From contig CAIIXF020000009.1 in the NCBI GenBank assembly GCA_903813345.2, forward strand, positions 32,863,259 through 32,927,258: 64,000 nt of DNA, written 5' to 3'. Positions 7,649 to 63,844 of the stretch are shown here, piece after piece. The notes under the pieces are model-generated. The model worked only from the letters and a program-made list of their open reading frames with translations. It had not been told where the DNA came from and did no database searches. Numbering within the stretch: the stretch's first letter is position 1; the number at the start of each line of letters is the position of its first letter. This stretch comes from Owenia fusiformis (taxonomy: Eukaryota; Annelida; Polychaeta; Sabellida; Oweniidae). The position numbers were made by a program, and so were the translations under genes.

Positions 7649-9177
7649 GATGTACACATCTGTACACCATTGCTCATCATACACAATAGTTAATGTTCAG
7701 AAGAAAAGATGCCGGATGAGTCTAAGTCAAGCCTGGCTGACTCCCGGGTCCAAATCCATACATACACTCGTGATTCATGATTAAATTACATTTCTCTGAA
7801 TACCTCTTTGAATGTAGAGAATTCGAAATAAAGTTTATTTATTGGATATCCTCTTATCCAACCCATTCTCAATGTACTATATGATAGTATTGATTTAATT
7901 CAAAGTTTTATTTTGAGACACCACCCTTATACAGCCTAACTACCCCTAGATAGGTTGCATCCTGGTGATGTCCCAAAGTTTTCATTTTATTTATATATTT
8001 AAGCACTAACTACTTAATTTATACCATGTACATGTATAGTTAACACAGCTACACAACTACATGTGGTTGATTCATAATTATTAATAATTACTATCCGATT
8101 CCCAGTTTATTTTATAGTATATTTCCTTAACCTTTTGCCTCTCCATTAACTGAACTATTAAACCTTTAATTAGTTCAACATCAGTTTCCTTTCTTCACAA
8201 GCAGGTTTCATTTTTAACATTCTATTATAACATTTTCCAAGAACAAAATCTAAATTAGCCTCATGCATCTATATTATAACGGTTGCCGTAGCAATTAGCA
8301 AAGTTGCCATAGAAATCTGCAGCAACAAACAAAAATAGCTAGATGACCCTACTGAATAGGAATCTAGTGAATACATACTTATGGGATTTATATTTATACC
8401 CACATAACATTGTGTTGAATGTAATAATGTAACAGCCCTATAAAGATACTACAACAGGGCATATATAAGTGTGCATTGGTTTTACCACACTTCGCAACAA
8501 CAGAACATTATATAGCCCCATGAATCTTGGCTATTCAGATCCTAACTAGTGTCACAACATTGTAGTCTAAATATAAATAATGACCCTTTCTCTAGTGGTT
8601 GTTCATCCTTATATGGATCGCTATAGCAACCAAGCTTGGTAGCCAAGCAGCAGCCAATTGAAGATTGGCCAATATGAAATCTGTAGTCATAATTCATCTG
8701 ATAATTTTCAATTCAATATCCTATTGATTATTGAATTGTGGGGATTCCTCCCATCATGTTTGAAACAGTAGTTCTATTGAATAGTCGGGAGTTACTACAC
8801 TGTTTGAAGCAGAATCAAATTCTATTGATTTCTATATTACCTCTGAATATCTGGTTATCCACATTTTCGTATTATCTTAGTTTACTCAACTTTTTCTAGC
8901 ATTAATGTCTACTTCAAGTAATAAAAAATGGAAAATAGAACCTAAACTATGTGTACAATATTTCATATATTTCAGAATTTTGAACTTAAAGTCCCTAAAC
9001 TGTTTTACTATTAACATTCTCTATACTGTTTTCATTTTTCATTTATACAGGTATTATTCCTGTACAGTTCCTTGTTATTTATGTGTACTTTTTGTTATCC
9101 TTGTGTACCCTTGGTCTTAGTAATCCATTTTATCTGCCTACCATGCATTATCCCTTGCTATTCATGTTTTTCTCGTC

Positions 9178-9600
9178 ATGTATTATTATTTAAGGGTATC
9201 CATGTATTTCTAGTCAACCCATGTATTATTATTTGAGGGTATCCATGTATCTCCAGTCATCTCATGTATTATTATTTGAGGGTATCCATGTATTTCCAGT
9301 CAACTCATGCATTATTATTTGAAGGTATCCATGTTTTTCCAGTCATCTCATGTATTATTATTTGAGGGTATCCATGTATTTCCAGTCAACTTATGCATAT
9401 TATTATTTGAGGGTATCCATGTATTTCCAGTCAACTCATGCATTATTATTATTTGAGGGTATCCGTGTATCTCCAGTCAACTCATGTATTATTTACTATT
9501 TGAGGGTATCCATGTATTTCTCCAGTGGATATTCATGTTTTCTCCAGTGGGTATCCATGTTATTTCTCCAGTAGATATCCATGTATTTCTCCAGTGTGTA
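9178..9600. repeat. 43-bp minisatellite in the likely ANKHD1 3' UTR
   Basis: About eight head-to-tail copies start at 9178, 9221, 9264, 9307, 9350, 9393, 9438 and 9484. Spacing is 43 bp for the first six steps, then 45 and 46. Each begins ATGTATTATTATTTGAGGG or a close variant. After 9510 the array decays into shorter copies of about 25 bp built on ATCCATGTATTTCTCCAGT. The open frames across it (for example around 9350-9574) are by-products of the repeat. Confidence 0.85.
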
Positions 9601-9965
9601 TTAAGTTTTGGGTTATCCATGAACTACTGCCCTGCACCCCAGTCCTGTTGCCACATCTATAAAGAAATATTGAAATTGCTTAGAAGAGTGTTAAAGTGAA
9701 AACTCACTGAAGATATTGCAAGATTTTGAATTTTGATGCATATCTTCTATTCAAGATTCTTCTAATGCTTTAGAGAACATTACAACTTACTTGATAATCT
9801 GTCTTGTACCTCTCGTGAATATCAAGTACATACCTAGCAATGTCATTGTAAAAGAACTGGCCCGTATTGACTTCATTCTTGCCAAAATAAAACTGGCATA
9901 TTTCAGGTCATAATATATTATATCGATATCTATTTCTTATTTTATATTCAGTACACAACTTTTTT

Positions 9966-10693: not shown

Positions 10694-13600
10694 CTAAAAT
10701 GACAAGCAATACACATTTACTTATTTCAGATAATCTCTGTAATGTGGCTTAATAATGTTATGATGCATCCTATACTCATCCACAAGTAAGGCTTCAAGCC
10801 CCAATTATGAATGAAAAAGAAAAAAATGAGTTTTTGTGTGACTTTATATGTTAACATACCTGCTCCAAAGGACCATATGCCAGTCATATCACCCATAGTG
10901 CTGAAACCACCAGGATTGGCCAAAATGGGTTTCTTGCTGCGCTCCATCCCAATGGTACTGAAACTACGCTCAACGCCTATTGGTCCTGGGGCCTTGCGGT
11001 CATCCAGCTCCTTGGAAGTGTCAGTGGGTGAGGGTGCGGTGGAGCCCTCTTGTGGCTGGGGCACGGGTGGACTACCATCAGGTTTGGCTGAAGGTGGAAC
11101 ATTGCTACCTCTAGGGGAACTACCAGTGTTGTTAATGTTCCTTTGTAGAATAGACATCCCTGACATGCCTTGCCCTTGCAGATTGCCAGTTGTTCCTCCA
11201 GGCATACCATTCACAGACATACTGCTCTGCATACTCCCAGACATGCCACTTCCAGACATGCTACTTTGTACTCCCCCTGGCATATTCACAGACATGCCAC
11301 TAGGCATATTCCCACCTATGCCCCCTGGCATATTTCCCGACATACCCCCTGGCATGCCACCTTGCATGTTACTAGGCATGCCAGGCATACTAGGCCCAGA
11401 CATGTTAGCATTGCTAGACATAGCTTGCATGTTACTCGTGCTGAAACCTCCAGGGAAACCAGCCATGTTGCTGTAGTTGAAATCACCAGGTGGTGGAATA
11501 TTGGTTGGGGGTAAGCCTGGGTGTGGCATGGCTCCAAAACCTGGCTGAGCACCAAGGTTCGGCAGACCAGATGGGGGTCGGAAGCCTTGCTGCATGAATG
11601 ATTGACCAGGGTTACTTGGTCCCATTTGGTCAACAGGTGGCGTAGGTGTTGATCTGAATTCAAACTTTGGAGCATTTGGGTTCAATGTACTCTCTATCTT
11701 AGGAAGCGTCATAGGCTGATGGGGTTGGCTGTACTTGGGCTCTCGATCCATGAATGACTGTGGAAAGTTACCATACACAGAGAAACCCTGCTGTGGGTCC
11801 ATTCCAAGGTTTGGGTGCATTTTGTTCATCTCCATGAACTGTCGCGCCTGAAGCATCACCTGACTACGAGGGGATATATCTGCCAGAGATATCCTGTTGT
11901 TGAAATCTCCTGGATTCTGCATGATTCTTGGGGGAGCCATGTTTGCAGTGTTGTACTGAAGAGACCTAGGGGAATTAGCATCAGACATGCTCCCTGGTCT
12001 GGGGGAGATATCACTCATACCTAGATTGCTTCTGGGTGAGTGCTGGCTGGGTGTTCCAGGGGCAGATCTGGGGGACATGGTGTTGTGTTGGTTGATTCTG
12101 TGAGAATCAAGCTCAGTATCTACTGACACATTGTAGCCCTGTTGCTGTGGATTGTACTCCTGTTGAGGGGTACTAGTGTTACTGCGCTGATTCATTGGTT
12201 TATACCCAGGTGCTTTAGCCTGAAGGGAAGGATCCACACCCCTATCAGGACCAATCATGACTGGTGGTGGCTCACTGCCTAATAAGGCAGTGACAGATGA
12301 CGATGGTGCAGCACTGGATCGAACTGCAGCTGCATTAGCAAAATTCATCCCATCTTTCTTGCCAAGGACAGAATCCACCTGACTGAAGAGATTATTATTA
12401 AAGGGGGAGTAAACCCCTGATGGGGCACTCTGAGGAGGCCCTTGATTGGCAGATGGCTGAGAATTAGGTCTCATTGGTACAGGTAGGCTAGGACCCTGAC
12501 TGTGTTGTTTCCCCTGCACATTCCCATTGCTATCAACATGTGTGGAGAAGCTTGGAGCTGTTGTGTTAACAACCTTCGTCTTAGCAGATGTCTTAACTGC
12601 GGTGAACATTCCAATGTTGGTCAACGTGGATGATGTAGGGTTGGATTTATCCAAGGGGAACAACTGCCTGGAGACTGTACTAGGACTTTTAGCCTGCATG
12701 GAGCTTGGGTGAGGAGCCTTTGCACCAGGTTGACGTTTTGGTGACATCCCAACTGTGCTAGTAGTTGGTGCCTGCCAGGCTGGGACAGGTACTTGGAACA
12801 CACCAATAGGTGGTGGCTGCTGTCTAGGTGGTATATTACTCCTGGATCCTCCATTTTGGATTACAGTGCTCGCCTTTGTGTTCACCTGGGTTGTTGATGT
12901 GGCGATCGTCGTGACTGTACTGATCACTGTCCCTGTGGTGATTGTAGATGATGATGCGTTAGAGCTCAGCAAAGATCGTTGCTTTTTAGGGATCAGCTCA
13001 GCAATCTCCTTGTCTGGGTCTTTAATGAGAGCTGTGATCAACTGATGTGCCTGACGTGTGGAGTCAGCAGACCCCCTAAAACAAAAATAAATACCCAAGT
13101 TTAAATTCAATGCCATTTCAGGTTTACTGGTACTAGTATAGATGTAGTATTGTAGTAATATTCCACTCAAGTCAAATTTTGGTATACTCCAAGGAATAGG
13201 AAAATCATAATTGTTGACAACATGTCAACATCAACATTTTAATATTCTCTTTTAATTTTGATAAAAATAACCAATTTCAATGATTTGGTCACTCACTTGA
13301 TTGTTATAGTCCTGTCATTGCCTCCCTTTGCCTTGTCAACTTCTATATGAGCTCCAGACACTTCACGTATTGCATTGATGTTGCATCCGCCTCTTCCTAT
13401 AACACGGGATATTGCTGTGGCAGGAACGATCACCTTCTTGGACCTAGAATTAATTGGACATCTATCTTCTTATTAAATTATCACAGTATTTTTTAATTAC
13501 AACCTGTTTAAATCAAATGTTTTGACTTTTTTATTGCTCCTTTATTTGGCATGTAAAATATGATTTAAAAAAACGTGTATTGTAAAGGGATACATAAATA

Positions 13601-19600: not shown

Positions 19601-22600
19601 CCAGCTGATTACTCTGTTGCTGCAGCTGTAGTTGTGCTTGTTGCTGCAGCTGTAGTTGAAGCTGTAGCTGATGTTGTTGCATTTGTTGCATCTGTAGCTG
19701 GGCTTGTTGTACTTGCTGGTTAACATGGACCTGAAAGGAAGAAATACATTATAAATTCAATCCACAACACAATTTATGATAGACATGAGACACTGATGAT
19801 TCACATGCAAAGTGTCACCACCATTTGTTAGACGCCAACCACTGATCATCACAAAAAATGGAGACCATAATCTGTCGCAGGTTTTTAAAATTGACAAATA
19901 CATGTAAATAAGGCTAGCAAAGAACACCTTTCACTAACATATGAGGTGTTGGTTCATTTCTACATACTTTTGATTCAGGATTTGAAATGGACAACTAACC
20001 TGAACATGTTGGTGTGCTCCCTGGGGGTTGACTTTAATCTGAACTTGTTGCTGGCTTGTAGCAGGTTGTGCTGTAGAAACTTGGATTTGACTCTGTACCA
20101 TTACCTGCTGTTGTTGTAACTGCTGCTGTTGCTGCAGTTGTTGGTGATGATGTTGTAACAGCTGTTGTTGTTGAAGAGGCTGCAATTGTAGCTGCTGTAA
20201 CTGGTGTTGTAAAATCATTGTTTGATTTTCTGGTTTTGGTTGCGTCTTTTTCCGTTTTGCCATTTTCACTTCCCGGCCTTCGATGGGGGTCATGTTCATT
20301 AGAGGCATAACATTGTTGGGGTCTTGCTGTATCGGGGTTAACATGAGAGGAGGGGGTGGTGGCGGTGGAGGTAACAGTGGCTGGGTGGTGACAGTTGATG
20401 GCACAGCCACTGTGGTGAGGTCGACAGTCATGTGCTGGTGGCACTGTACAGTGGGTAAAGTCACAGTGCCACTATTTGCAACAGATCCACAACTTGACGT
20501 TAGAACAGCCCCCTGAGGGCAACTAGTGCTGGTGTGGCTAAAGCTCGCAGTCATTGGAGGCTGGGGTGGGGCCTCCGGCAGACTCAGCTCTGCTGGGTAG
20601 CTTGCGGGATTAGGCTCAGTATCATCTAAACCACTGCCACCTAGGGGCTGCTGACTGCAATTCAATATTCCAATCCCTAGAGACTCGTGGAGTAGGGCAG
20701 GGGGCTCTCTGGCATCCTCTTTCACATGGTTAAGATTAATTTCTCCATTTTCAGTTTGAGAGAGTTGGGTTTCATTTTGGCTTTGAGGTGGATCTTTGTC
20801 TGGTTTCAGAGAGGCAATATTTTCTTGCTCTGCAGATAGGTTCGTATTACACTCAGTAGCTTTCTCACCAGGTGAATCCTTGTCATTTTCTGAGGCCACT
20901 TTAGCGGGTGCCTCTAGGTCATTTTGATCATGAGTGGGGCTATCAGGGGTAGTAGCATTAGTATTGGAGTGTACTGCAATGTTGTTAGGTCTTGCCTCCA
21001 CTTGACTGGTATCATCTATCACCTCACCATCACTCTCTCCAAGTGGCTCAGTACGATCTCCTGGAGGTGCCTGGGGCTCACATGGGGTATCATTCTCTCC
21101 CCGGGGCTCTTTTGGGGAGTCCTGTTGGCTGTGGGGTTCCTTTTGCCTTAAGGTCTCCTTTGAGGGTTCTTGCTGATTGAGGGTTTCTCCTGGAGGCTCC
21201 TGTTCTCCTTGGGGTTCCACTCTCTCCATTTCATGCACTGTGTCTTCCAAATCAGGTGGGTCAACAGAGCTAGACACGGGGGAGGGTGGAGGATTGGGGT
21301 TTTGGTGTTCACTAGATTGCACATCATCAGTCAGTTGACCTTGGGATGACAGATCAGAGGGTGCGTCGATATAGCCAATAGGTGGCTCTGAGGTGTCATC
21401 ATACGCTGGCTCCTCGCCACCTCCATCATACTGCAATAAACCTGCCTCCTTCAGCTCGGGATCAAGATCCCAGAGGTTCCGTTTAGCCGCCTTTGCTTTA
21501 ATCTGACTCTCAAATGCTATGTGCAGTGGTAGAGGTTCATGTTTGATTTTAACCTGAAGCTCCTTCTCGACCTTTTGCAATTCTTCAAGGATTTGCTGCT
21601 TTTTCTGAATCTGCTCTTCCCGAGTGGTATTCAGTTTTTCAGCCTGCTTCATCATCTTGTTGATAAAGGCCTTTAGGTCAGGTCGGTCCTCAAGTTCTTG
21701 GAGGTGTTGGCTTTCAAGGTCAGAATAGCCACGGTTTTCCATATCGGGATACCCATGGCTCTCATTCTCAGCATATCCTCGGTTTTCAACATCACCATAA
21801 CCATGGTTTTCCAAATCTGAATAACCTCGATCGTAGTTAAACTCGACATTATCTAATTCTCCACCACTTGATGACTGGGAATCGATGCTCTGGGAACCTT
21901 CCTTGTCAGCTAGTTTCATCTTCTTGCTGCGACTTAGAGATTTCTCCATATTCTGACGTATTTGCTCAGGTGTTTTCACGGGAATATTTAAATCTTTCAA
22001 ATTAATTTGGCCAGGGACTTGGGATGAACCTGTAAGAGAATAGCACAGCATATTAATGACATTTCTCACCTGACAAGAGTTGTAAAATATCTCAAAATGC
22101 AAAATAACAGATGATTTTGGTAAAAGCAATCAGAGAAAATTGCCTGTTACTAACAAAACTCCTGCTAGTGCTGGAAATATCTGGAACTTATAAATATAGA
22201 GTGAGGTTTACTTTTTTCAAAAAGAGAATAAAGCATTCCCAGAGATGTCCATGTTAAAACTTACCAGCTGATGGTTGTATATTAGGTATATAAGCTGTGC
22301 TGCTTATGGGTATAGACTGCAATTGCTGTTGCTGTGCCTGATACTGCTGTACTTGTTGAAGCTGCTGTACTTGCAGCTGCTGCACCTGTAACTGCTGTTG
22401 AACTTGCATCTGCTGCACAAAATTTGGGTCCTGGATGTTTGGAACAAAGTTACCATTTGACACGGCCATTTGGTTAACATAGTTGGGATCCTGGGGTGGC
22501 ACAACATTGGTTAGGCCATGCATTGGCACACGGGGTAGCTGAAATTAAGGTGAACATTTTCAATAGTGGTATATATCACATTATCTAAACTAAGTTTTAA

Positions 22601-25600
22601 CCCAGGGGTAAGATAATATAAATTTGATACATTTGAGCTCAGTTAAAATGTTTTCAGCACTGTAATGCAGGTCAAGTGTCAAAGCATCATAGCTCATTTC
22701 TTCAAATATAGGCAATTTTAAAGATAACATGTATTAGGTTGTTACCTCATTGGTGCTTGAATCTGGTACTGCGACCTGTGCTAGTTCTTGTCCATTGCTG
22801 TTGCTCACATTGTTGGGGTAATCTAACAGCAGGTTGACAACATTAGTGTGACCCCCTTTAGCAGCCTCAATCAGCATTGTAGAGCCATCCTAAATACATG
22901 AACAATAAGGAATAGATTTGGGAAAATTTGGAGGTTTTCACTTATTTGGACTCAATTATCCATTATTTAGTCATGGTATTACATTATATCAGGTATATTC
23001 TGAGCACTCGAAATGTTTAACCATGTGCCAGTGCAACTACATGTACATGTTTAATGTTTATTAATAATTTTGGCTTGGGGGCAAACCAACAATAGTTTGA
23101 TCTTGAAATAGATTGAGTCACCCTGATTTATTCTAATGGAATAGTGCCTCTCACAATGGACACAATTTATAGATTTTAGTTTCTTACCTTCAATTTGTGA
23201 TGAGGATCAGCACCATGTGCTAGGAGCAGTTCCACAACAGCAAGATGTCCCCCAGCACAAGCCAGAGACAGCACAGTGTGGTCATTGGTTGTGGTTTGCC
23301 TGTTAACATCTGCCCCCTTACTGATCAAGAACTGTACAGTACACAGGTGCCCTGCTCTGGCTGCTTTCATCAGTGGAGTACGACCTCCTTCTGACTCATG
23401 TTCCTAAAGATAACAACATTAACTCAGTATGATATACATGTACGTATCAAAATCATGAACAAATCTTTACTATCAACTTGAAATCTGTCAATTACGAAAT
23501 GAGCTCAGTAAATATCATTTTCAGCATTATAAATGCAGGTCAAGTGTCAAAGCATCATGGCTCATTAAATATTTATTAATTTCTCATATTCTACAGATGG
23601 ATCCTAATTCAATATTGATTAAAGTAATACATACCAGTCCGGCTCCATGCATGAGAAGGACATCAGCAACATCAGTGTGTCCATTCTCACATGCATAAGT
23701 CAGTGCAGTGTCACCAGTACCAGTGTGAGCATGAACATTACTCCCTTTGGAAAATAAAGAACACTAAATCAACATTGTATCTAATAAAATTTTACTGGTG
23801 TACAAATCATTGAAATACGTTCAATAATTCATAAAATATACCCCATGAGCTCAGTAAAATATTTTCAGCATTATAAATGCAGGTCAAGTGTCAAGCATCA
23901 TTGCTCATAATGGAATGCATATATATATCAAAGACAGATTTTCTTCAAGTTAACATGGACTTAAAGATACATGTGCCTCTGAAAACATTCTTGGTATGTA
24001 TTTCTAATTTATCTCATAATATAACAGAAAACTAAAACTTACCAGATTTTAGAAGGTATTTGACAAGCTCAAGGTGTCCCTCTTGGGCTGCCTCCATAAG
24101 TGGTGTGCTACATCCCAGTTCTAGATCTGCCCCTGCCTTGATGAGGAAATCTGCTACCTCCAGGAAACCCCCACAGCAGGACAGTGTCAGTCCAGTCTCC
24201 TGGGTTTCCTCAGTCTGTGCATTGATGTCAGCTCCTGGGAATAAAATGACAGATGAATGACTCACAAATACTATTGTCTTAGAAGAAAAATAAAACGTCT
24301 CAAACTTTTTAATGTAATCCTACATTATTCAATGAAAAACAAACTCATTTGAAAAATAAATTCTAGGTATTTGATAGGCTGGACCATTTCACTGGATTTT
24401 CACACCATGGTATGCTGCTATTTCAAGTGTTTTCAAATGTTGATACCAATCAGCAAGCAACAGGAAATGACAGTTTTGCAAGTAGACTGAGTTAATCTAT
24501 TCTTTTATTTCTTAACACTACCTATCTTACCATGTGCAAGGAGAAGAGAGACCATCTCTTCATGTCCTTCTCTTGCTGCTTCCATCAGTGGTGTATATCC
24601 TTCATCATTGACTTCTTCAAGGTTGGCCCCTCGTTCAATCAGGAGGTTTGCAAGCTCAACATGTCCACCACATGCAGCTAGTGTCAAAGGAGACTCAAAA
24701 CTGTCAGCAGGCATGTTAACCTAAACAAGACAAAACAAATAAAACTTATTTATGGAGTTTTTAGTTCACATGTCAACACATTTCATGGATAGTAAGGTTT
24801 ACATGGCAAAAAACATACAACAAATGTGCCCCATACAGGTGTTATTGGAAATTTACAAACACAAAACTCATAATTTGTTAGGTTTAATTGAAACTTGATA
24901 ATCCAATGAATGTCATATCCCTTTCAATTTGAGTAAGATTTGTACTGTATTGTACCCCATTGTATATGAATGTAATGTACCTGTGCCCCACTGTCCAGTA
25001 ACAACCTAGCAACCTCCACATGTCCATCCATGGAGGCCTCCATTAAGGCGGTGTGCATCTCGTCTGTTTTGTGCTCCTGGTCAGCACCAGCTTCTAGCAG
25101 AAACTTCACCATCTCAAGGTGCCCTAGAGATAAAGTTCATGATAAGACTATACAAAAGTTGAATTCTATTGAGGTAAATACCTGTGCCTCTTTCACAAGT
25201 GATTTTTCAAGAAGCCTGATTAGATCAAACAACTGCAGAGTTAAATAAACTCCTAGTATTTTCATAGTTTAGTGCCTAAACCTATGAATGTAATCTGAGT
25301 ATTCTTATTTTGTTTCATCATCAATCAGATTTTATACATTTCTAAATTGTTAGTTTACAATTATACGAGACCAACTCTGCTTTTTCTCATTAATTGTAGA
25401 ATATCCGATTATCATACCTTTATAGCACGCCAAGGTCAAAGCACTTTCTTTGAACTCATTAGAGTGAGTGTTAATTCCCGCGCCACCCTCAAGAAGAGAC
25501 ATCGCAACTCCTGCATGACCAGCTGATGCGGCCTCCATCAGGGGTGTATGACCGTTCTCGTTATGTTCTTCCACATTAGCCCCAGCTTCGATCAGTACCT

Positions 25601-28600
25601 GCACAACATCCTCATAGCCACCACATGATGCATAATGTAGAGGAGTGTTGCCTGAAAATTCAATAACTGTTTATCTTGAAGTTCAGATTGTCCTATCAAT
25701 GAAATGAGGGTTCCTACTAATTTCTTAGGTAACATAGTTTACAGAAATCCAAAAATGATATCTATATAGATGTTTCTGCAAAAAATCTTACAAAATTTCA
25801 AAATTGCCACCTTTTTTCCTCTTGATTCTCTGATTTCACAATTTTTGGGAATAATTAAGAAATTCCATATTTTTTCCAGGATTTCTGAGATATGAAACTA
25901 ATTTAGAAGGCGGAGCATGCAGACAATATCATTACACATTGGTCTTCACCATTTCAAGTAATGCCTAAATACATGATAACCTTAGTTCAAACCCCAGGGT
26001 CGGCTTACACTCAGGGATGTTTATTTTTAAGTGAAATGTAAATCCTATTGTATTTATACATCCATCTGACATTATCATAAGGCTTTGCATCATAACAGGC
26101 CAGATTTTCAAGTTGTTCTTTCATCTAAAGAATAATATTTATTGTGATAAGAAGGACTATTCATCATAGAAATATAACTGCATATACATTCATGATATGA
26201 GCTCAGTAAAAAAGCTATCAGCATTATAAATACAGGTCAAGTGTCAAAACATCATAGCTCACTGTAATAGTCCCACAAAAAGAACATAAATATACTTTAC
26301 AGGGAAACCAAAGAAGTCATGAATGTCGACAAAAATGCAGAACCTCAGCTCTTATAATGAAAGGGGTCTCAAAAGTTTTAAATATTAACTCTACCTGCAG
26401 AGGACTGAGCATTGACATCAGCACAGTTTGCAATGAGTAGACGTACAATGTCTACATAGCCCCCACTTGCAGCCTCCATGAGTGGTGTACAGTCACCCTT
26501 GATACCCCTGTCCTCTACATTAGCCCGCATAGCCAGAAGGACCTATATAAAAAATACGACAATTATGAACTTAAATGTTAACTTCAATGGCCAAACCAAA
26601 AGTGCCAACTACCACAATCATAAGACAATAGATATGTTCATGGTTCATACATTGATGTATTGGGTTAAACTTTTAAATAATTTTAAATTTACTATTTTGA
26701 GCTCAGTATAAATGTTTTCAGCACCATATTACAGGTCAAGTGTCAAAGCATCATTGCTCATGGCTTAAAAAATTCAAAATAACAACAAGTAGTTTGTGAG
26801 TGGACCAATCAAGTAATGCCTCAGTCACATTTGATCTACGGCAACCGTACAGCAGCCATAGCATATCCCAAAACCGAGAAATATATGCAGCATAAAATAT
26901 AGGGATAAGCAGTACAATGTCAATTTTCTATATCGACTTTGTGAAGTTATGGCCGCTGTACACATGCTGTAGAACAAATGTGAGCGAGGTTTAAAGATTC
27001 TTAGAAACAAAAAACCTTGAATCTTACCTGGGCAAGTTCGTAATAACCAGCAGAGCAAGCAAGAGACAGTAAGCTTTCACCCTCCTCTGTTGTCTCATGT
27101 ACACTGCCTCCTTCATCTAGGAGCTTCCTGACAGTGTGGATGTCACCATCACTACATGCTTCAACCAGGGATCTGCTGTAAATACAATATGAACATTATA
27201 ATGGATGGGACTTACATGATTTAAGGTATAAGGTATTTGTATTATGATTCCATATAAAGTGTATGCAACAATACTATAAGTCTTGAATTTCTTTACATAC
27301 AAGATGTACATTGCATTGTTGGATTGCATTTATTTTGATGGTATTTGATGGTTTTCTAAAGGTTCTTCCACTGACTTTCCTAATCAAATGAATATAACAA
27401 TTTAAGCAGAAGCTCTCCTACCTGTCGACCCTTGCTAGAGGTTCTTGTTGTTCTGCCCTCATGCGTGTTAGAGCTGCTGCAGCCTCATCCAATGCGGAAC
27501 TAACTGATGTAGTCAGCCTCCGTAGCACTTCAGGGTCACCAAATGTTTTACCATCAGGTGTAGAGAGTTTACCTATACCTGCAAATATATAGGCGAGTTC
27601 AGGTAAATAATGAGATATGACCATTTAAGAATATATCAGAATAAATCTAGTTATGGGACTACAGTAAATGAATTTTTTGTGAAGAGTTAGCAGCCTGGTT
27701 ATATCCTTCTCACATTTCTGACATCCTGGCTAAAGTGAACATACCTGAGTATTTATATTGCGAATCCTCACATACAGAGGTGTTCTCAAAAAATTAACAC
27801 AAAAGACAAAAGAGCTAAATAATACCTAATATGGGATCAAAAAGTGTATATTCTCAGGTTTTATCTCATTACAAACAAAAGCATTCCCAAGTGCATTTTT
27901 CAAAAATAAGATAATCCTTCGGTGCAAACATCAATTTGCAATAATATTCAAAGTACACATTTTCTTCCTTCAAATGTCGCAGAACTAAGATGCACAAAGA
28001 AAATGTTTGGGTGTTGGTTTGAAGTTGAGAGGTGAACCTGTCTGAAAGAAAACCCCCAATTGAAATAAAGCTACTGGCCTGTTACAATCAAATGCCCACT
28101 GCCCAGTTTAACCCTTTATATGGATCAAAAGCCTTTTGACCTATTTCAAATATCCAGTTTAACCCTTTAAACAATACTAAACTTATAGCTTGCAATATTG
28201 CGTTACAGAATGAACTTGAAAACTTGAGAGAAGCATTAAAGAGTGAACTTTTAACTAAGAGAAAGGAGGCCTGAAGAACATTCTGTTTTTCATTCCACAA
28301 GTTTGCACTTATCTACATACCAGGATGCTTTGCAACATCAAAGCTTGCATTCACACATTCTTAAGTTCTAAACAGTCAAAATATTTATGATTCTCTGAAT
28401 CTGACCTATGGCATCGTCTAAATATATACTAAAGACCAAAGGATTGTAATATTAAAATGTATCACAGTCTAAAGCTACACATTTAGAGACAGTCCTGATT
28501 TTCATTCATAAAACGTAAACTATGAAATTAATTTTAAGCCCTTTAGGGTATTCTACTTGTAAACACTATGACCTGAAAAAAGAAGCAGCTGGTGTGGTGA

Positions 28601-31600: not shown

Positions 31601-34600
31601 ACACAACAGTTTCAACAAATTAATGTTCTCTGTTTTGTGAACATCACTATTGTCTTTTAAAACATGAATAAAAATAAACAAACAAGTGAGTGATTGCAAA
31701 AGCTCACTATGTGAGCTAAAAACCAGATTTCTCCAAAATGAGGAAGCATAGTTGTATATGACCATTAGTTCAGAAAATCTAATGATGAAGGATGGATGGA
31801 TGAACAGGCCATAGACTTTGAAATATGAATACATGTACTGCACTCCCAGTTAATTTCGCGTATTTTGTGAAAATGCAATTTCGTGCAACTTTCACATTTT
31901 TATCGGAATCCTCAACTTTTGGTTAACTAAGTTACCTTTTGCACAGTAGTTACATCCAACTCAGTATAATATTTGGATAACATTTATAATTACAAGATCT
32001 TGGAAAACGGTACGTTGTACCAGTATACCCCAACCTCTATTACATCATCATTTTTGGTCTAATTGATCTAAAAAGCCAGCGGAAGAGACTTCATAGCTAT
32101 ATCCTTTTAATCGCCCAATAACACTGGACGACTGTTTTACACTTAACGAAATGCATCAGAGTCCCAGGTAATGACAAATCCCTGTGGATATAATTTGCGA
32201 ATTTCGCAATGATTATTTTTCACGATTTTACTGCAATCACAAAACTAAATCGATCACGAAAAATACCGGGAGTACAGTATTCCCAAATAACAACAACCTA
32301 CCTGCAGCTTCCAAAAGTGCTTCCAGCCTAGCCTGAGTCTCTGGATCCACTGTATGTAGATCAGCATTCTCCATATTTTCAGTGTTAAGCAGAAATTTTG
32401 ATGCCTCCAGACATGACTCCCCATCTTCAATGTCATCTTGGTCCAGCATAAATGACTCAACCTGTAAAAAAGAACTTACTATATAACACACGAAAGGCTC
32501 AATATTTACATAAAATAGTCAATTTTCAATATGTAACACAGAAGATTCAATATGCAATACATGAGATATAAGATATCCAATCCACATTATGACAAATAAG
32601 GAAACATGGCATCAATATGTAGTTACAGCCTCTACTGCTAATGTTTTGTCATAGAATCAAATATCAGCTCAGCGTTCAAATATCTAAATCTCCCTTTGGT
32701 GATATCAGTTGAGAAATCAAAACCTTCTCGCTGGTCCCACCTATATTGGGTATTATGGGGATGAACTGGAAACTACTGCACTATATTCCTGTAATAAGAA
32801 TTTTCTTCTATGAGGTATTTTCATAAGCATTTAAAAAATATAACTCCATTGAATGAACTTCCATCTTTTGAGAGAATCAACGTTTTGATCTATAATCAGT
32901 TGTTGGCTAGCTAAAACTGAAAAATCTAATCCTAATTTGAATGGCAGTGACTTGTGATCCACATATTTCTATAATGAAGAATTATCAAACAGGGTTCATG
33001 GGAAATTGATGGAAATGGACTAAATTAATGTATCTATCAGAATCTATAGATTAACAGATATATAAAATATTGTTCTACATTGTACTTGATGACCTTATAA
33101 ATCAGCATAATCAATACTGCAACAATACAGAAAAGCATATACATGTATATGGAATGCTGTACATAATTGAAACACTACATCTTCTAACCAGGATTTTTTT
33201 CACAAGCATTGACAAAGTTCTCATTTTCTAGACTTTATATAGCTTTCATGAAGTTTCTCATTTTTAAGGAGGTGCAAGTCCAATTTCAAAATCTAGATTG
33301 GGTATAGCATCCACTTTAGAGGTGGGGAGATCACTGTATTGAGGGAGATCACTGTATTGAGGGAGATCACAGTATTGAGGGAGATCACTTTATTGAGGGA
33401 GATCACTGCATTGAGGAAGATCACTTTATTGAGGGAGATCCCTGTATTGAGAGAAGTAGAAAAACAACTGGCATCAATGAAGTCTCACATCACTGCAATT
33501 TTGTAGCTCCTCTAACGTGCTATCTAATTCCCTAAATTGTGTTTCAGATAGAAAGAATGTTAGAATTCAGTGGAATCGGAATCATGACTAGAATAATGAC
33601 GGATAAGGTAAAAGATAAATTTATAAATCTGGGAAATTCTAGCTGTACTGGATGATCCTTGTATGAACCTAAAATAAATTTGTGCCAACGGTACAGGTGT
33701 AACCAAGAATTTGGCATGGTCTAAACTTGATATAACCTTATTCATGATACCTAAATACATGCACTGCTTTCATCTCGGTCATCTGCTTTGACTTGTTATT
33801 ACATATATTGAGTTAATTTAAACAAGCCTCTTTTTCAACACTATATACATGTACAACACCACAAATTATATATTTCCTACTCATGTTTATGTGAGTGAGA
33901 AGCATAACAATGAATCATAAAACAAATATTCCATTTTATTTCAGGAAATATTCCATATTTCAGTTAAATATGGAGGACACCCTAGCTCAGAAAATAGTCA
34001 AGAGTGGAAGATTACAATCCTGAAGTAATATAAGAAGATCATTTGTTTACTTGGTGACCTATCCAATAATAAACATTTATCAATGTACAAATGAATGATG
34101 CTAGAATCAAATCAGACAAAATGCTTCAAATATTGATAGCGTCAAGGTTATTTTTACCATGATAGCATAATACATTGTACTTTACATTTCCATGTTCTTT
34201 GCATGTAACTTACAACAATCTATTATAAATTCTGTTATATGTTAATGTCACAGATAAACCTGGAAACATGAACTACTTCACTATATATTCTTATGCATAG
34301 GTTTAAATTACTTTGTACTTTAGGTGGGCAACTTGTTCTTACTGTATATACACAGTATACTGAGTGGAATGAAAATCTTTATGTGATGCTTCTATCTATT
34401 TTGAATCTTGCTGCTCTAGCGTTAACCTTTAGCCAACCAGATTTAATATCTATGTCAATGTAGCATCACCATGAAATGAAATGTAAATAAAGTTTACCCA
34501 GGAACAGTAAAAATCAATTTTCTCCGTTCAGATTGAATACTGTCACTTAGTCAATTTATGATTTTCTACAGTACTGACATGTGAAACAATAGTACTTCTT

Positions 34601-49200: not shown

Positions 49201-52200
49201 ATTATGTTTTAATACAGTTTTGTATATTACAGCTGGTATGTGTTGGCCAGGACTATAGTGCTATTCCCCCACATATTGCAAACTCCTATGGCACCATGGT
49301 AACCAGATTAGATCTGTCTTTCAACAGGTTGCGGTAAGTAAACACTTTCATTGCTACAACATGTGTATTATATTTTGTTTGTACAGTTTTATCACGGTTG
49401 TTGTAACAAAATCATATCAAAATCAAGGATTAACCTACTTAACTTTTATTATAGCATCATTATGTCACCACCAAAAGTGGTGACATACATATTGTTATGG
49501 TCTCCGTTTTTTTGCGACGGCGGTTGGTGGTTGCCGTCCGGCGTCTGGCGTCTGGCGTCCGGCGTCCGGCGTCTGTAACAATTTCTTACAACTTCCTATA
49601 ACTTAACAAATACTGTTTAGACTGACTTCAATTTTTTTCTAAATCATCTACATGTTCTCAGAAGTTCAAATCTGACTTTAGATTTGACATTTGACCTTCA
49701 ATGACCTTCTCAAGGTCAAAAAGGTCTTTTTTCAACTTGCTTCACATTGACTAAATTTTTTTTCAAAATCATCTACATGTTCTCAGAAATTCAAATCTGA
49801 CTTTAGATTTGACATTTGACCTTCAAATCTGACTTTAGATTTGACATTTGACCTTCAATGACCTTCTCAAGGTCAAAAAAGGTCAAAAAGGTCTGTTTTC
49901 AACTTGCTTCAAATTGACTTCAAATTGACTAAATACTGTTTAGACTGACTTCAATTTTTTTCTAAATCATCTACATGTTCTCAGAAGTTCAAATCTGACT
50001 TTAGATTTGACATTTGACCTTCAATGACCTTCTCAAGGTCAAAAAGGTCTTTTTTCAACTTGCTTCACATTGACTAAATTTTTTTTCAAAATCATCTACA
50101 TGTTCTCAGAAATTCAAATCTGACTTTAGATTTGACATTTGACCTTCAAATCTGACTTTAGATTTGACATTTGACCTTCAATGACCTTCTCAAGGTCAAA
50201 AAAGGTCAAAAAGGTCTGTTTTCAACTTGCTTCAAATTGACTAAATTTTTTTTTCAAAATCATCTACGTGTTCTCAGAAATTCAAATCTGACTTAAGATT
50301 TGACTTAAGATTTGACATTTGACCTTCAATGACCTTCTCAAGGTCAAAAAAGGTCAAAAAGGTCTGTTTTCAACTTGCTTCAAATTGACTAAAAAAAATT
50401 TCAAAATCATCTATGTATTCTCAGAAATTCAAATCTGACTTTAGATTTGACTTAAGATTTGACATTTGACCTTCAATGACCTTCTCAAAGTCAAAAAAGG
50501 TCAAAAAGGTCTTTTTTCAACTTGCTTCAAATTGACTAAATTTTTTTTTCAAAATCATCTACATGTTCTCAGAAATTCAAATCTGACTTTAGATTTGACA
50601 TTTGACCTCAATGACCTTCTCAATGTCAAAAAAGGTCAAAATGGTATTTTTTCATCTTGCTTCAAATTGACTAAATTTTTTATTCAAAATCATCTACATG
50701 TTCTCAGAAATTCAAATATGACTTTAGATTTGACTTTAGATTTGACATTTGACCTTCAGTGACCTTCTCAAGGTCAAAAAAGGTCAAAAGGGTCTTTTTT
50801 CAACTTGCTTCAAATTGACTAATTTTTTTTTTCAAAATCATCTACATGTTCTCAGAAATTCAAATCTGAATTTAGATTTGACATTTGACCTTTAATGACC
50901 TTCTCAAGGTCAAAAAAGGTCAAAAAGGTCTGTTTTCAACTTGCTTCAAATTGACCAAATTTTTTTTTCAAAATCATCTACATCTTTTCAGAAGTTCAAA
51001 TTTGACTTAACAAGTTCTCAGAAGTTCAAATCTGACTTTAAATTTGACCTTTGACCTTCAGTGACCTTCTCAAGGTCAAAAAGGTCTTTTTTCAACTTGC
51101 TTCAAATTGACTAATTTTTTTCAAAATCATCTGCATGTTCTCAGAAGTTCAAATCTGACTTTAGATTTGACCTTCAATGACCTTGAAAAGGTCAAAAAGG
51201 TCTTTTTTCAACTTGCTTCAAATTTCCTTAATTTTTTTTTCAAAATCATCTACATGTTCTCAGAAGTTCAAATCTGACTTTACATTTGACATTTGACCTT
51301 CAATGACCTTCTCAATGTCAAAAAAAGTCAAAGAGGTATTTTTTCAACTTGCTTCAAATTGACGAATTTCTTTTTCAAAATCATCTACATGTTCTAAGAA
51401 GTTCAAATCAAACCTTCTTAAGGTCAAAAGGTATTTTCCAACTTGCTTTAAATTGACCAAATTGTTTTAGGTGGTGACATTTTGTCATGTTAATGCCTTG
51501 TTCTGGTTTACCAGACCCCTCTTATCTGTCATTCGCAAGAGATTGTGATAAAGGGGATGTGGATATCGCAATGATATAACTTACTTTCTAGAAACTCGAG
51601 TATTTTTTTTCAACTCCATTGTACTCTTCTACAGATGGGCAGATTAATAGTTTTAATTGTTTAATTGATTTAATTCTTTTTTTCTTATTCAGGAGTTTAG
51701 ATGGTTTAGAAGCTTTCACATCACTGGAGGAGTTGGTTTTAGACAACAATGAGCTAAATGACACAATAGCATTTCCAACTATTAAGAGATTGCATACACT
51801 TACATTAAATAAAAACCAGGTAATATGAAATTTGAAAATCTGGTACATTTTAAGCATATTTGAAATCTTCCAGAAAATTATGGAAAAACACCCTCCCCTT
51901 CGTATGGGCCTGAACACAGATATTTATTCCTCTTGTTTATATTATTAGACTACATTTTATGATTTTATGTTTGAAAGTGCTTGTATGAAGGTCACCTAAC
52001 TTTTTTATTTCATATCTTATTTATGTTAAATGCTTAATTGTAAACACATTTATGCACCTTAATACTATTTTTGATTTGACTGGATTTCTTCCAACAGATA
52101 AGAGATTTAGACCCGTTACTTGAACAAATAAAACACCACCTGCCTAATGTGACATATCTCAGCCTCCTTGGAAACGAGGCCTGCCCCAATCAACTCTCAA

Positions 52201-56689: not shown

Positions 56690-56783
56690 CAATTTTATAA
56701 ATGTGATTGTTGTGATTTTATAAATTGGATTGTTGTGATTTTATAAATGGGATTGTTGTGATTTTATAAATGGGATTGTTGTG
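56690..56783. repeat. 23-bp tandem repeat, four copies
   Basis: Unit ATTTTATAAATGGGATTGTTGTG with one- or two-base variants, four head-to-tail copies. Confidence 0.8.
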
Positions 56784-57192
56784 ATGATGGCCACTTTGTT
56801 TGTAAGTGGACTTTCCAATAAACCGTGCCACCTTTTAGTAGACGAACGAAGCTATCATATATTTGCACGATTCGGTTCCGCATTGCGCGCTTGTGATACA
56901 CACACCGAGCATTTTCTGCCCGCTCAGTTTGCATAGGATTATGAACAGCTCATTCATCTCAGAGGGTGTTTTAAAACCTGTAGAATGAAGTTTTCTTCCA
57001 AGCAATAACCAGACCTACTGTATACACGACACATAGTCATAATCATTTTTTGGGGTAGAATACTGTAGGTGGAATGGTATTTTGCCACCAATCCACCAAC
57101 GATCAAGCCAAGAGGTTTAATATAGTCGGAACATATTTCAAACAATACAGCATTTAGAATCAAAATAACTCCTGTTTTGTGTCACTCACTGT

Positions 57193-61934: not shown

Positions 61935-63844
61935 TCACATTTTGTCATCTGTCATCTCAAGGAACTGGGCATAAACGTCTCTGGTGCACTCACCCTTGGC
62001 ATTGAATATGAATTTGTAATAACTCCCATCTGCACAAATAACTGAAAGAAAGTTTAAAATATTGAAATCAAAATTGCATAATTTTTTGCATGGAGTCCTT
62101 GCCTTCACTCCTAGGCTTTTTTCAAAAATTATTTCAGACATGCTTCAACTTACATAAAATAGAATACAAGAGAACTGGTCCACTGATTAGATTGCATTCA
62201 AATGAAATTGCTCACCCAGGCAATTTAACAAAAACATAACTGATTACCACTAAAATTAACTAGAAAATGGCAACTCCACGGAGTAGCAAATCCCAACGAA
62301 CACTATATAAATCATCAATCTGTACAGTCACAATGTAATATTTACCATCTACTCTTACCTTCAATAAATATTTTAAATCATGTAACCATACTTTCAAGAT
62401 AACTAAGTAATGGCGAATTTCTGCTCTAGTCAGCTATTTTGAATTTTCAGAGGCACAAATCAGAAAAACAATGCCATAATTGTGATCTACTCTGAAATTC
62501 CTTCAATTTGAGTATAATATAGCCATACTTTTAAGAGATCAGAAAACAATTGCGAAATCCCGCATTAGGCGGCCATTTTGAATTTTGAGGCCCGAATCAG
62601 AAAAACGTTACAATATTTGCAATCTACTCTAAATGGCCTTTCATTTGAGTATAATAAAGCTATACTTCAAAAACATCTCAAAATTAACGCAAATTCCTGT
62701 TTTCCCGATCCCCCATTTACGGCCCCTGGGGGTCAGGGTGAAAAACCCGGGATATATGTGAAAAACATAGATGATGTTAATATACTACCAAAATTTCAAA
62801 TAATAATATTTATTATTTTGGTTTAAATGAAAAACATAAGTTTTTTGCAAAAAATTCCCGCCATTTTTAAACTGGCGGCCATCTTGCGTAAAACTGTTCA
62901 CCAATATACATCATTCCACCAAATATGAAGAAAATCTGTCGACTAGTATTCGAGTTATCTTCTGGACAGACGGACGGACGGACTGACTGACTGACGGACA
63001 GACGGACGGACGGACGGACGGACGGCTTCACTATATCCCTACAGAACTTCGTTCGTTGGGATAATTACAACAAAGTCAAGTACTGAACACTCTTACCAAT
63101 GACAGAGTTGGGATCAGCTCCAAAAGCACATATACACTGGCTGTTACCAGGGACTTGAAAACGAGAGAAACTCCACTTGGAGCTGAAGTACTTGGGGAGG
63201 AATGGAGCAGACCCTAGACTAAATACACATAAAGAGGCCAATTGGTTAGATAATATTGACATTAACTTTTATATCATCAGTAAAACATATTAACAAGGGC
63301 AAAAATCTATGCTTCCTTTTCACTGAGTAATAATACTTGTAGACAGATAAAAATTCTATTTGAAGAGAACTTGTAAATAATTTTCATAATCATAAATAAC
63401 ATGAGAAGTGTATATATTGTATATCAGTGATCTCCACAGCATTTAAGTAAGTGGGCACACCACCCACCTGAGATTTTGAAAATAGGCTTGTGCCAACCTG
63501 AAAATCGATTTGCAACCACTTGAAAATGAGAAAAATCATGAAAAATTGGCATATTTTGACCAATTTTTATCTGAATTGTGAAAATGAGAATTTTGCACCC
63601 ACCTGAGAAAAAATCATGGGGAGATCACTGTATATTATTGTACAATCTCAGGTGAAAACAATAAAGCCCCCAAAGGATGCTATAACAAGCATTAAAATAC
63701 ATGGGGACAATAGCTATATGGACATTTAAACCCTTTCATTACCTTGACTGTTTATTCTTTTTGGGGTCCTCTACAGAAAATATGTGCACTGTTCCATGAT
63801 CACTGGATACACAAATAAGGGAAGAATCGTGGTTGAAGTTTATA
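61935..63844 (-). CDS. WDR45B: WIPI-family PROPPIN (WDR45B/WIPI3-like), last three exons
   Basis: Exons on the minus strand: 63844-63743 ([20 protein letters not shown], then [13 protein letters not shown]), 63218-63097 ([20 protein letters not shown], then [13 protein letters not shown]) and 62041-61935 ([20 protein letters not shown], ending FLEMTDDKM and TGA). The phases 1-2, 1-1 and 2 fit together. The sequence follows human WDR45B almost residue by residue, including the C-terminus [12 protein letters not shown], which favours WDR45B over WDR45. PROPPINs are seven-bladed beta-propellers that bind PI3P through an FRRG motif (upstream, outside the window) and act in autophagosome formation and lipid transfer with ATG2. 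The gene continues beyond the right edge. Confidence 0.93.
62291..63061. mobile_element. Interspersed repeat with TCCCAACGAAC ends and a GGAC microsatellite
   Basis: It begins TCCCAACGAAC and ends with the inverse GTTCGTTGGGA. Near the right end is a GGAC/GACT tetranucleotide array (62966-63025). Related fragments occur at about 6655-7010 (AAATCCCAACAAACA, GTGATCTACTTTAAAG) and 37385-37690. It sits in the last intron of WDR45B. No coding capacity recognised. Confidence 0.7.
63426..63629 (+). mobile_element. MITE with AGTGATCTCC terminal inverted repeats, copy 2
   Basis: 204 bp in an intron of WDR45B, closely similar throughout to 29163-29357 (shared AAAATGAGAAAA, CTGAATTGTGAAAATGAGAA). Both ends are intact: AGTGATCTCC and GGAGATCACT. 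Confidence 0.8.

Follow-up and report, generated by a model that had tools for sequence, protein, structure and literature searches.

A five-copy family of probable intronic box C/D RNAs in an ankyrin-repeat/KH gene of Owenia fusiformis, with U2 A30 as its predicted target

The window analysed here is a 64,000-nucleotide (nt) stretch of Owenia fusiformis contig CAIIXF020000009.1 (positions 32,863,259 to 32,927,258), in which five paralogous elements, c1 to c5, very probably form a family of box C/D RNAs. Judging by the sequence of their conserved guide, they probably direct 2′-O-methylation of U2 small nuclear RNA (snRNA) at A30. The five copies fall inside 4.1 kb, from 22634 to 26760 on the minus strand. 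If the D′ box is read as CTG(C/T), the guide pairs with nt 27–34 of human U2 (UCAAGUGU) by eight uninterrupted Watson–Crick pairs, and its fifth nucleotide faces A30. The targets compared were human snRNA and ribosomal RNA (rRNA) sequences totalling 6,223 nt, with the 28S expansion segments missing; in this set the next in-register helix made of Watson–Crick pairs only has six (18S). For the U2 stretch, confirmation comes from a primer given in PMC3338655 and PMC6451326 (papers are cited by PMC number).

22634..22696, minus strand: c1, box C/D RNA, 63 nt, in the intron between the exons ending at 22747 and starting at 22538
22668..22680, minus strand: conserved guide and D′ start of c1, GACACTTGACCTG
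23500..23564, minus strand: c2, box C/D RNA, 65 nt
23536..23548, minus strand: conserved guide and D′ start of c2
23846..23907, minus strand: c3, box C/D RNA, 62 nt, one T fewer separating the C box from the guide
23880..23892, minus strand: conserved guide and D′ start of c3
26198..26261, minus strand: c4, box C/D RNA, 64 nt, alone in exceeding the gathering score of Rfam SNORD36
26233..26245, minus strand: conserved guide and D′ start of c4
26698..26760, minus strand: c5, box C/D RNA, 63 nt
26732..26744, minus strand: conserved guide and D′ start of c5

Architecture, conservation and uniqueness of the copies

The first-pass annotation had reported five sense-oriented intronic copies of 63–69 nt. 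All five were found at their sites, on the strand of the ankyrin-repeat (ANK)/KH gene, and only the lengths had to be corrected, to 63, 65, 62, 64 and 63 nt for c1 to c5. The elements which that annotation had described, namely the TGAGC/GCTCA stem, the C box ATGATG(C/T), the D box CTGA and the C′-like box TGCTGA, are indeed common to all of them. From 5′ to 3′, each copy consists of TGAGC, one free base, ATGATG(C/T), at most one T, the invariant TTGACACTTGAC, CTG(C/T) as D′ and a short variable loop, followed by TGCTGA as C′, an AT-rich spacer, CTGA and GCTCA; the whole stretch TTGACACTTGACCTG is identical in the five. The closing stem of five base pairs (bp) is invariant and adjoins both the C box and the D box in every copy, as is characteristic of box C/D RNAs. 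The sole variable base among the first 12 occupies the position where the bulge of a kink-turn is expected.

D′ and C′ are invariant except for the last letter of D′. They can pair as a hairpin, and for that reason this putative internal motif would be without the sheared G–A pairs of the canonical C′/D′ motif. The hairpin is CUGCAUU/AAUGCUG with one U–U in two copies, with variants in the others; standard pairs make up 96.4% of its scored cells, the U–U column being left out and two gapped cells set aside. No covariation was found across the five copies, and their folding energies, which do not stand out from those of shuffled sequences (z between −1.35 and 0.29), are uninformative.

The proposal that selection is focused on the first guide is consistent with the alignment: none of the 12 guide columns varies, as against 18 of the 23 linker columns (Fisher P 7.4e-6, with the guide/linker split chosen after the alignment had been seen). 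Pairs of copies agree at 13 to 17 of the 23 linker positions, the 100-nt flanks are not homologous (P < 0.05 in 1 of 20 comparisons), and similarity ends at the stem. Since the copies share ancestry, the invariance of the guide is to be read as constraint and not as five independent events. The arm from C′ to D carries no guide that is consistent among copies. In c1 and c3, it gives 12-bp matches (11 and 10 Watson–Crick, respectively) to one human 18S stretch, with the fifth position facing different nucleotides (1011 and 1012); in c2 and c4, it matches other places, and in c5 nothing at 9 bp or more. These D-side guides to 18S were dismissed as AT-rich chance, no shuffle control having been run.

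Exact matches to the 13-mer GACACTTGACCTG number five in the 64 kb. With up to two mismatches, 19 matches are found where 0.99 is expected; of the 14 that lie outside the copies, 12 are in a minisatellite at 49.7–51.3 kb and two are singletons. A covariance model of the five copies, run on the window, returns 17 matches up to E 10: the copies themselves, each at E < 1e-17 (high by construction, as the model was built from them), and 12 others, the best of which (E 0.025) lies in the minisatellite, so that no sixth copy was detected in the 64 kb by this model. A scan of both strands for a C box, a D box and a stem gave eight candidates (about 1.15 per strand expected by chance), five of which are c1 to c5.

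The predicted U2 target and competing explanations

The A30 assignment, which goes back to the first-pass annotation, is the best supported of the possible targets. Besides the length of its Watson–Crick helix, it has in its favour the same guide in the same register in snoU2-30 (RF00493), which we take to be the A30 domain (mgU2-30) of vertebrate SCARNA9, also called mgU2-19/30; the assignment is still a prediction made on human U2. At least eight Watson–Crick pairs with U2 are reached by 10 of 2000 shuffled guides, and the duplex energy of −10.6 kcal/mol by 8 of 1000 shuffles. A30 lies just ahead of the branch-site recognition sequence. In the proposed mechanism, each copy would be released from a spliced ANKHD1-type intron, and its boxes and stem suggest that the core C/D proteins would bind the terminal C/D motif. 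The guide before D′ is then predicted to pair with nt 27–34 of U2, and fibrillarin to 2′-O-methylate A30, giving Am30. As part of this explanation, the copies probably arose by duplication within the one gene and were kept by selection, which would act on the boxes, the closing stem and one guide.

A number of observations weigh against A30. The duplex is only 8 bp long, which the first-pass annotation had called its main weakness: the snoU2-30 guide reaches −14.1 kcal/mol. The shortest working guide described in PMC6770171 held a 14-nt antisense element, and a permuted single-domain version with C′/D′ was inactive in the experiments reported there; in c1 to c5, C′/D′ is degenerate. The invariant TTG ahead of the pairing core plays no part in U2 pairing. 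When G–U pairs are allowed, helices of 10 bp (6 Watson–Crick) and 8 bp (7 Watson–Crick) with 28S and of 8 bp (6 Watson–Crick) with 18S appear in the same register. The Drosophila U2 oligonucleotide given in PMC13228274 has an extra A in this stretch, and such a fly-type sequence (UCAAAGUGU) weakens the duplex to −6.8 kcal/mol; in fly U2, the same paper mapped Cm28, not Am31, by a method described there as unable to separate closely spaced sites. Complementarity alone can mispredict targets (PMC8522698). The snoU2-30 score of the copies is far below the gathering threshold, and other C/D families score alike. Finally, a C as the last guide nucleotide is reported to lengthen D′ and to shift the site by one nucleotide (PMC5389607), and c1 to c5 all have a C at that position; therefore, G31 is a possible second site.

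The same C underlies the suggestion that D′ begins one nucleotide earlier (CCUG) and that G31 is methylated instead of, or besides, A30. However, the base ahead of the D box is likewise a C in the snoU2-30 consensus, and pairing in the D′/C′ hairpin appears to start at the second C; a shift to G31 is thus rated very improbable. A broader objection is that the copies are real box C/D RNAs whose conserved guide acts elsewhere (on a site in rRNA, on a tRNA or on an mRNA), the U2 match being coincidental. Helices of at least eight Watson–Crick pairs are formed somewhere in the 6,223 nt by 345 of the 2000 shuffled guides, the whole of TTGACACTTGACCTG is invariant, beyond what the U2 duplex needs, and the mispredictions cited above count on the same side, as does a version in which D′ is UUGA and CUUUGACA pairs with 28S UGUCAAAG over 10 bp, 8 of them Watson–Crick. 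This register (TTGA in the DNA) was rejected because it overlaps the C box and because c3, one T shorter, retains fewer pairs, and in the CTG register the human set, which lacks the 28S expansion segments, offers no Watson–Crick-only match longer than six except U2. Another target is accordingly considered unlikely.

The remaining explanations question the class or the function of the elements. Five paralogues within 4.1 kb, folding energies like those of shuffles and the lack of covariation would suit a small intronic repeat or decayed, functionless small nucleolar RNA (snoRNA) copies. Yet all five are intronic and in sense orientation, the 64 kb yielded no sixth copy, and boxes, stem and guide are intact where linkers have diverged and flanks are unshared; moreover, 59.5% of human C/D families have a single host gene for all the members that are expressed (PMC8178906), and decay or a repeat is regarded as highly improbable. 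It is even harder to accept that the copies are SNORD36 (RF00049) members guiding rRNA methylation. SNORD36 is the only Rfam family matched at gathering level in the window (26198–26260, minus strand, in c4, 30.6 against 30 bits), and the C/D layout is shared. The threshold is passed by one copy in five and by 0.6 bits only (the other four score 29.2, 23.3, 21.8 and 20.5 bits), both SNORD36 guide stretches align to the copies only with gaps in the printed alignments, and no other copy has the U-rich stretch seen on the D side of c4. The match was judged a misassignment; taken alone, it would mislabel the family as SNORD36.

Likeness to known guide RNAs and significance of the family

In Rfam, the snoU2-30 consensus ends in UACACUUGAcCUGAGCUCA, with ACACUUGAcCUGA directly before its D box. 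It shares with c1 to c5 the C/D layout, the closing stem GAGC/GCUC, the CUGAGCUCA end and the guide ACACUUGAC with its spacing to the box. It differs in carrying the guide before D, whereas in the copies it stands before D′, in its longer duplex and in belonging to a two-domain small Cajal body-specific RNA (scaRNA), while c1 to c5 are five free-standing copies. The eight guide letters are shared because both RNAs aim at one U2 stretch; what is informative beyond this is the register, together with the C that adjoins the box. In cmscan, snoU2-30 scored 24.9, 24.3, 21.0 and 20.6 bits for four copies (gathering score 60), c2 not being among the matches listed, and boxes and stem were aligned but not guide with guide. 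When c5 is searched by itself, snoU2-30 has the lowest E of the 20 matches; in a wider Rfam search, it is outscored by SNORD36 and SNORD98, and ceN109 has a lower E. Membership of RF00493 by homology would call for a score of at least 60 and for an A30 guide directly upstream of D, and neither applies to the copies. With scores below gathering and rivalled by other families, this is therefore a likeness of guide and not demonstrated homology.

In human U2, scaRNA9 is the guide for Am30 (reviewed in PMC7960923). According to PMC4041459, partial cleavage of the vertebrate doublet yields monomers of mgU2-19 and of mgU2-30, the latter of which accumulate in the nucleolus, and a UG-repeat or G·U wobble stem is the signal for the Cajal body. 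The family had also been called scaRNA-like, a label that found no support since c1 to c5 contain no TGTG and hence no UG-repeat signal (the fly-type CAB box was not searched). Drosophila scaRNA:MeU2-C28, also of the box C/D type, is a guide for this part of U2 (PMC6770171), but it targets C28, acts from the D-box side and faces a fly U2 with the extra A (PMC13228274). Several copies in the introns of one gene are also known for human SNORD58 in RPL17 and for SNORD12, whose guides and hosts are different; recombination in cis has been proposed for such multicopy families (PMC8178906).

The kind of RNA is well known, and it is common for a C/D RNA to be present several times in one host gene. 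What is new is the lineage, the host of ANKHD1 type, the occurrence as five free-standing copies and the placing of the guide at D′. More tentatively, and with the odds against it, it may be supposed that the U2-A30 guide here is a free-standing five-copy ANKHD1-type RNA acting from D′ through a mostly Watson–Crick hairpin in place of sheared G–A pairs, and that copy number or host splicing would set the dose of U2 Am30 and hence of m6Am30. Conservation of the latter modification extends from fission yeast to human; it is produced by METTL4, which requires Am30 as its substrate (PMC7960923). With a guide family from a further animal lineage, one could learn how the A30 mark is set there, how the guide can stand at D in one lineage and at D′ in the other, and whether a D′ guide of 8 bp suffices when C′/D′ is degenerate.

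Host gene, wider searches and neighbouring repeats

The host gene encodes ankyrin repeats and a KH domain and lies, like the copies, on the minus strand. Of seven open reading frames (ORFs) scanned with Pfam, three have ANK above the cut-off, one below it (best E 5e-5) and three no match; its KH domain is located as follows.

13296..13469, minus strand: exon stretch of the host gene encoding a KH domain; Pfam KH_1 at 50.9 bits, matching KH proteins in PDB

From this ANK plus KH architecture and from peptide stretches typical of ANKHD1, not from a database match, the gene is presumably ANKHD1/mask, and the earlier proposal of an ANKHD1-type host for a box C/D guide family is supported. Every copy is flanked by a GT donor and an AG acceptor, and 5 of the 10 introns read between 27.6 and 22.5 kb contain one copy apiece. 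The distances from the 3′ end of the copy to the downstream acceptor are 95, 96, 101, 546 and 155 nt (c1 to c5). The earlier numbering of these introns as 4, 5, 9, 10 and 12 fits if the ORF at 39.8–40.2 kb is exon 1 and that at 32.2–32.5 kb exon 2, further small exons being possible. Pairing of the guide with the host transcript is not indicated, as TCAAGTGT is absent from its 29.5 kb.

The guide pattern has no match in a collection of bacterial and archaeal contigs. In viral contigs, it occurs at two loci near-identical to each other (161 and 141 nt read), which have C-box and CTGA letters by pattern and no closing stem by eye and were taken as chance. Patterns for eukaryotic U2 and 18S gave nothing in the viral contigs, nor did one for 28S in the bacterial and archaeal contigs. 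Among the matches listed in the literature search, there is no publication on c1 to c5, on such molluscan snoRNAs or on ANKHD1-hosted snoRNAs, which does not in itself show absence from print.

The window also contains several repeats. The minisatellite-like array (49608–51409) has periods of about 116–430 nt and repeated AAGGTCA/TGACCTT motifs, and 12 places in it match the guide 13-mer with two mismatches (GACATTTGACCTT/C). A 42-nt inverted repeat in the intron of c5 may be a small mobile element; its arms (26819–26860 and 26948–26989) are 81% complementary and 87 nt apart. Other tandem arrays are located at 9176–9601 (units of 43–46 nt), 33325–33451 (18 nt), 56692–56785 (23 nt) and 62964–63025 (4 nt).

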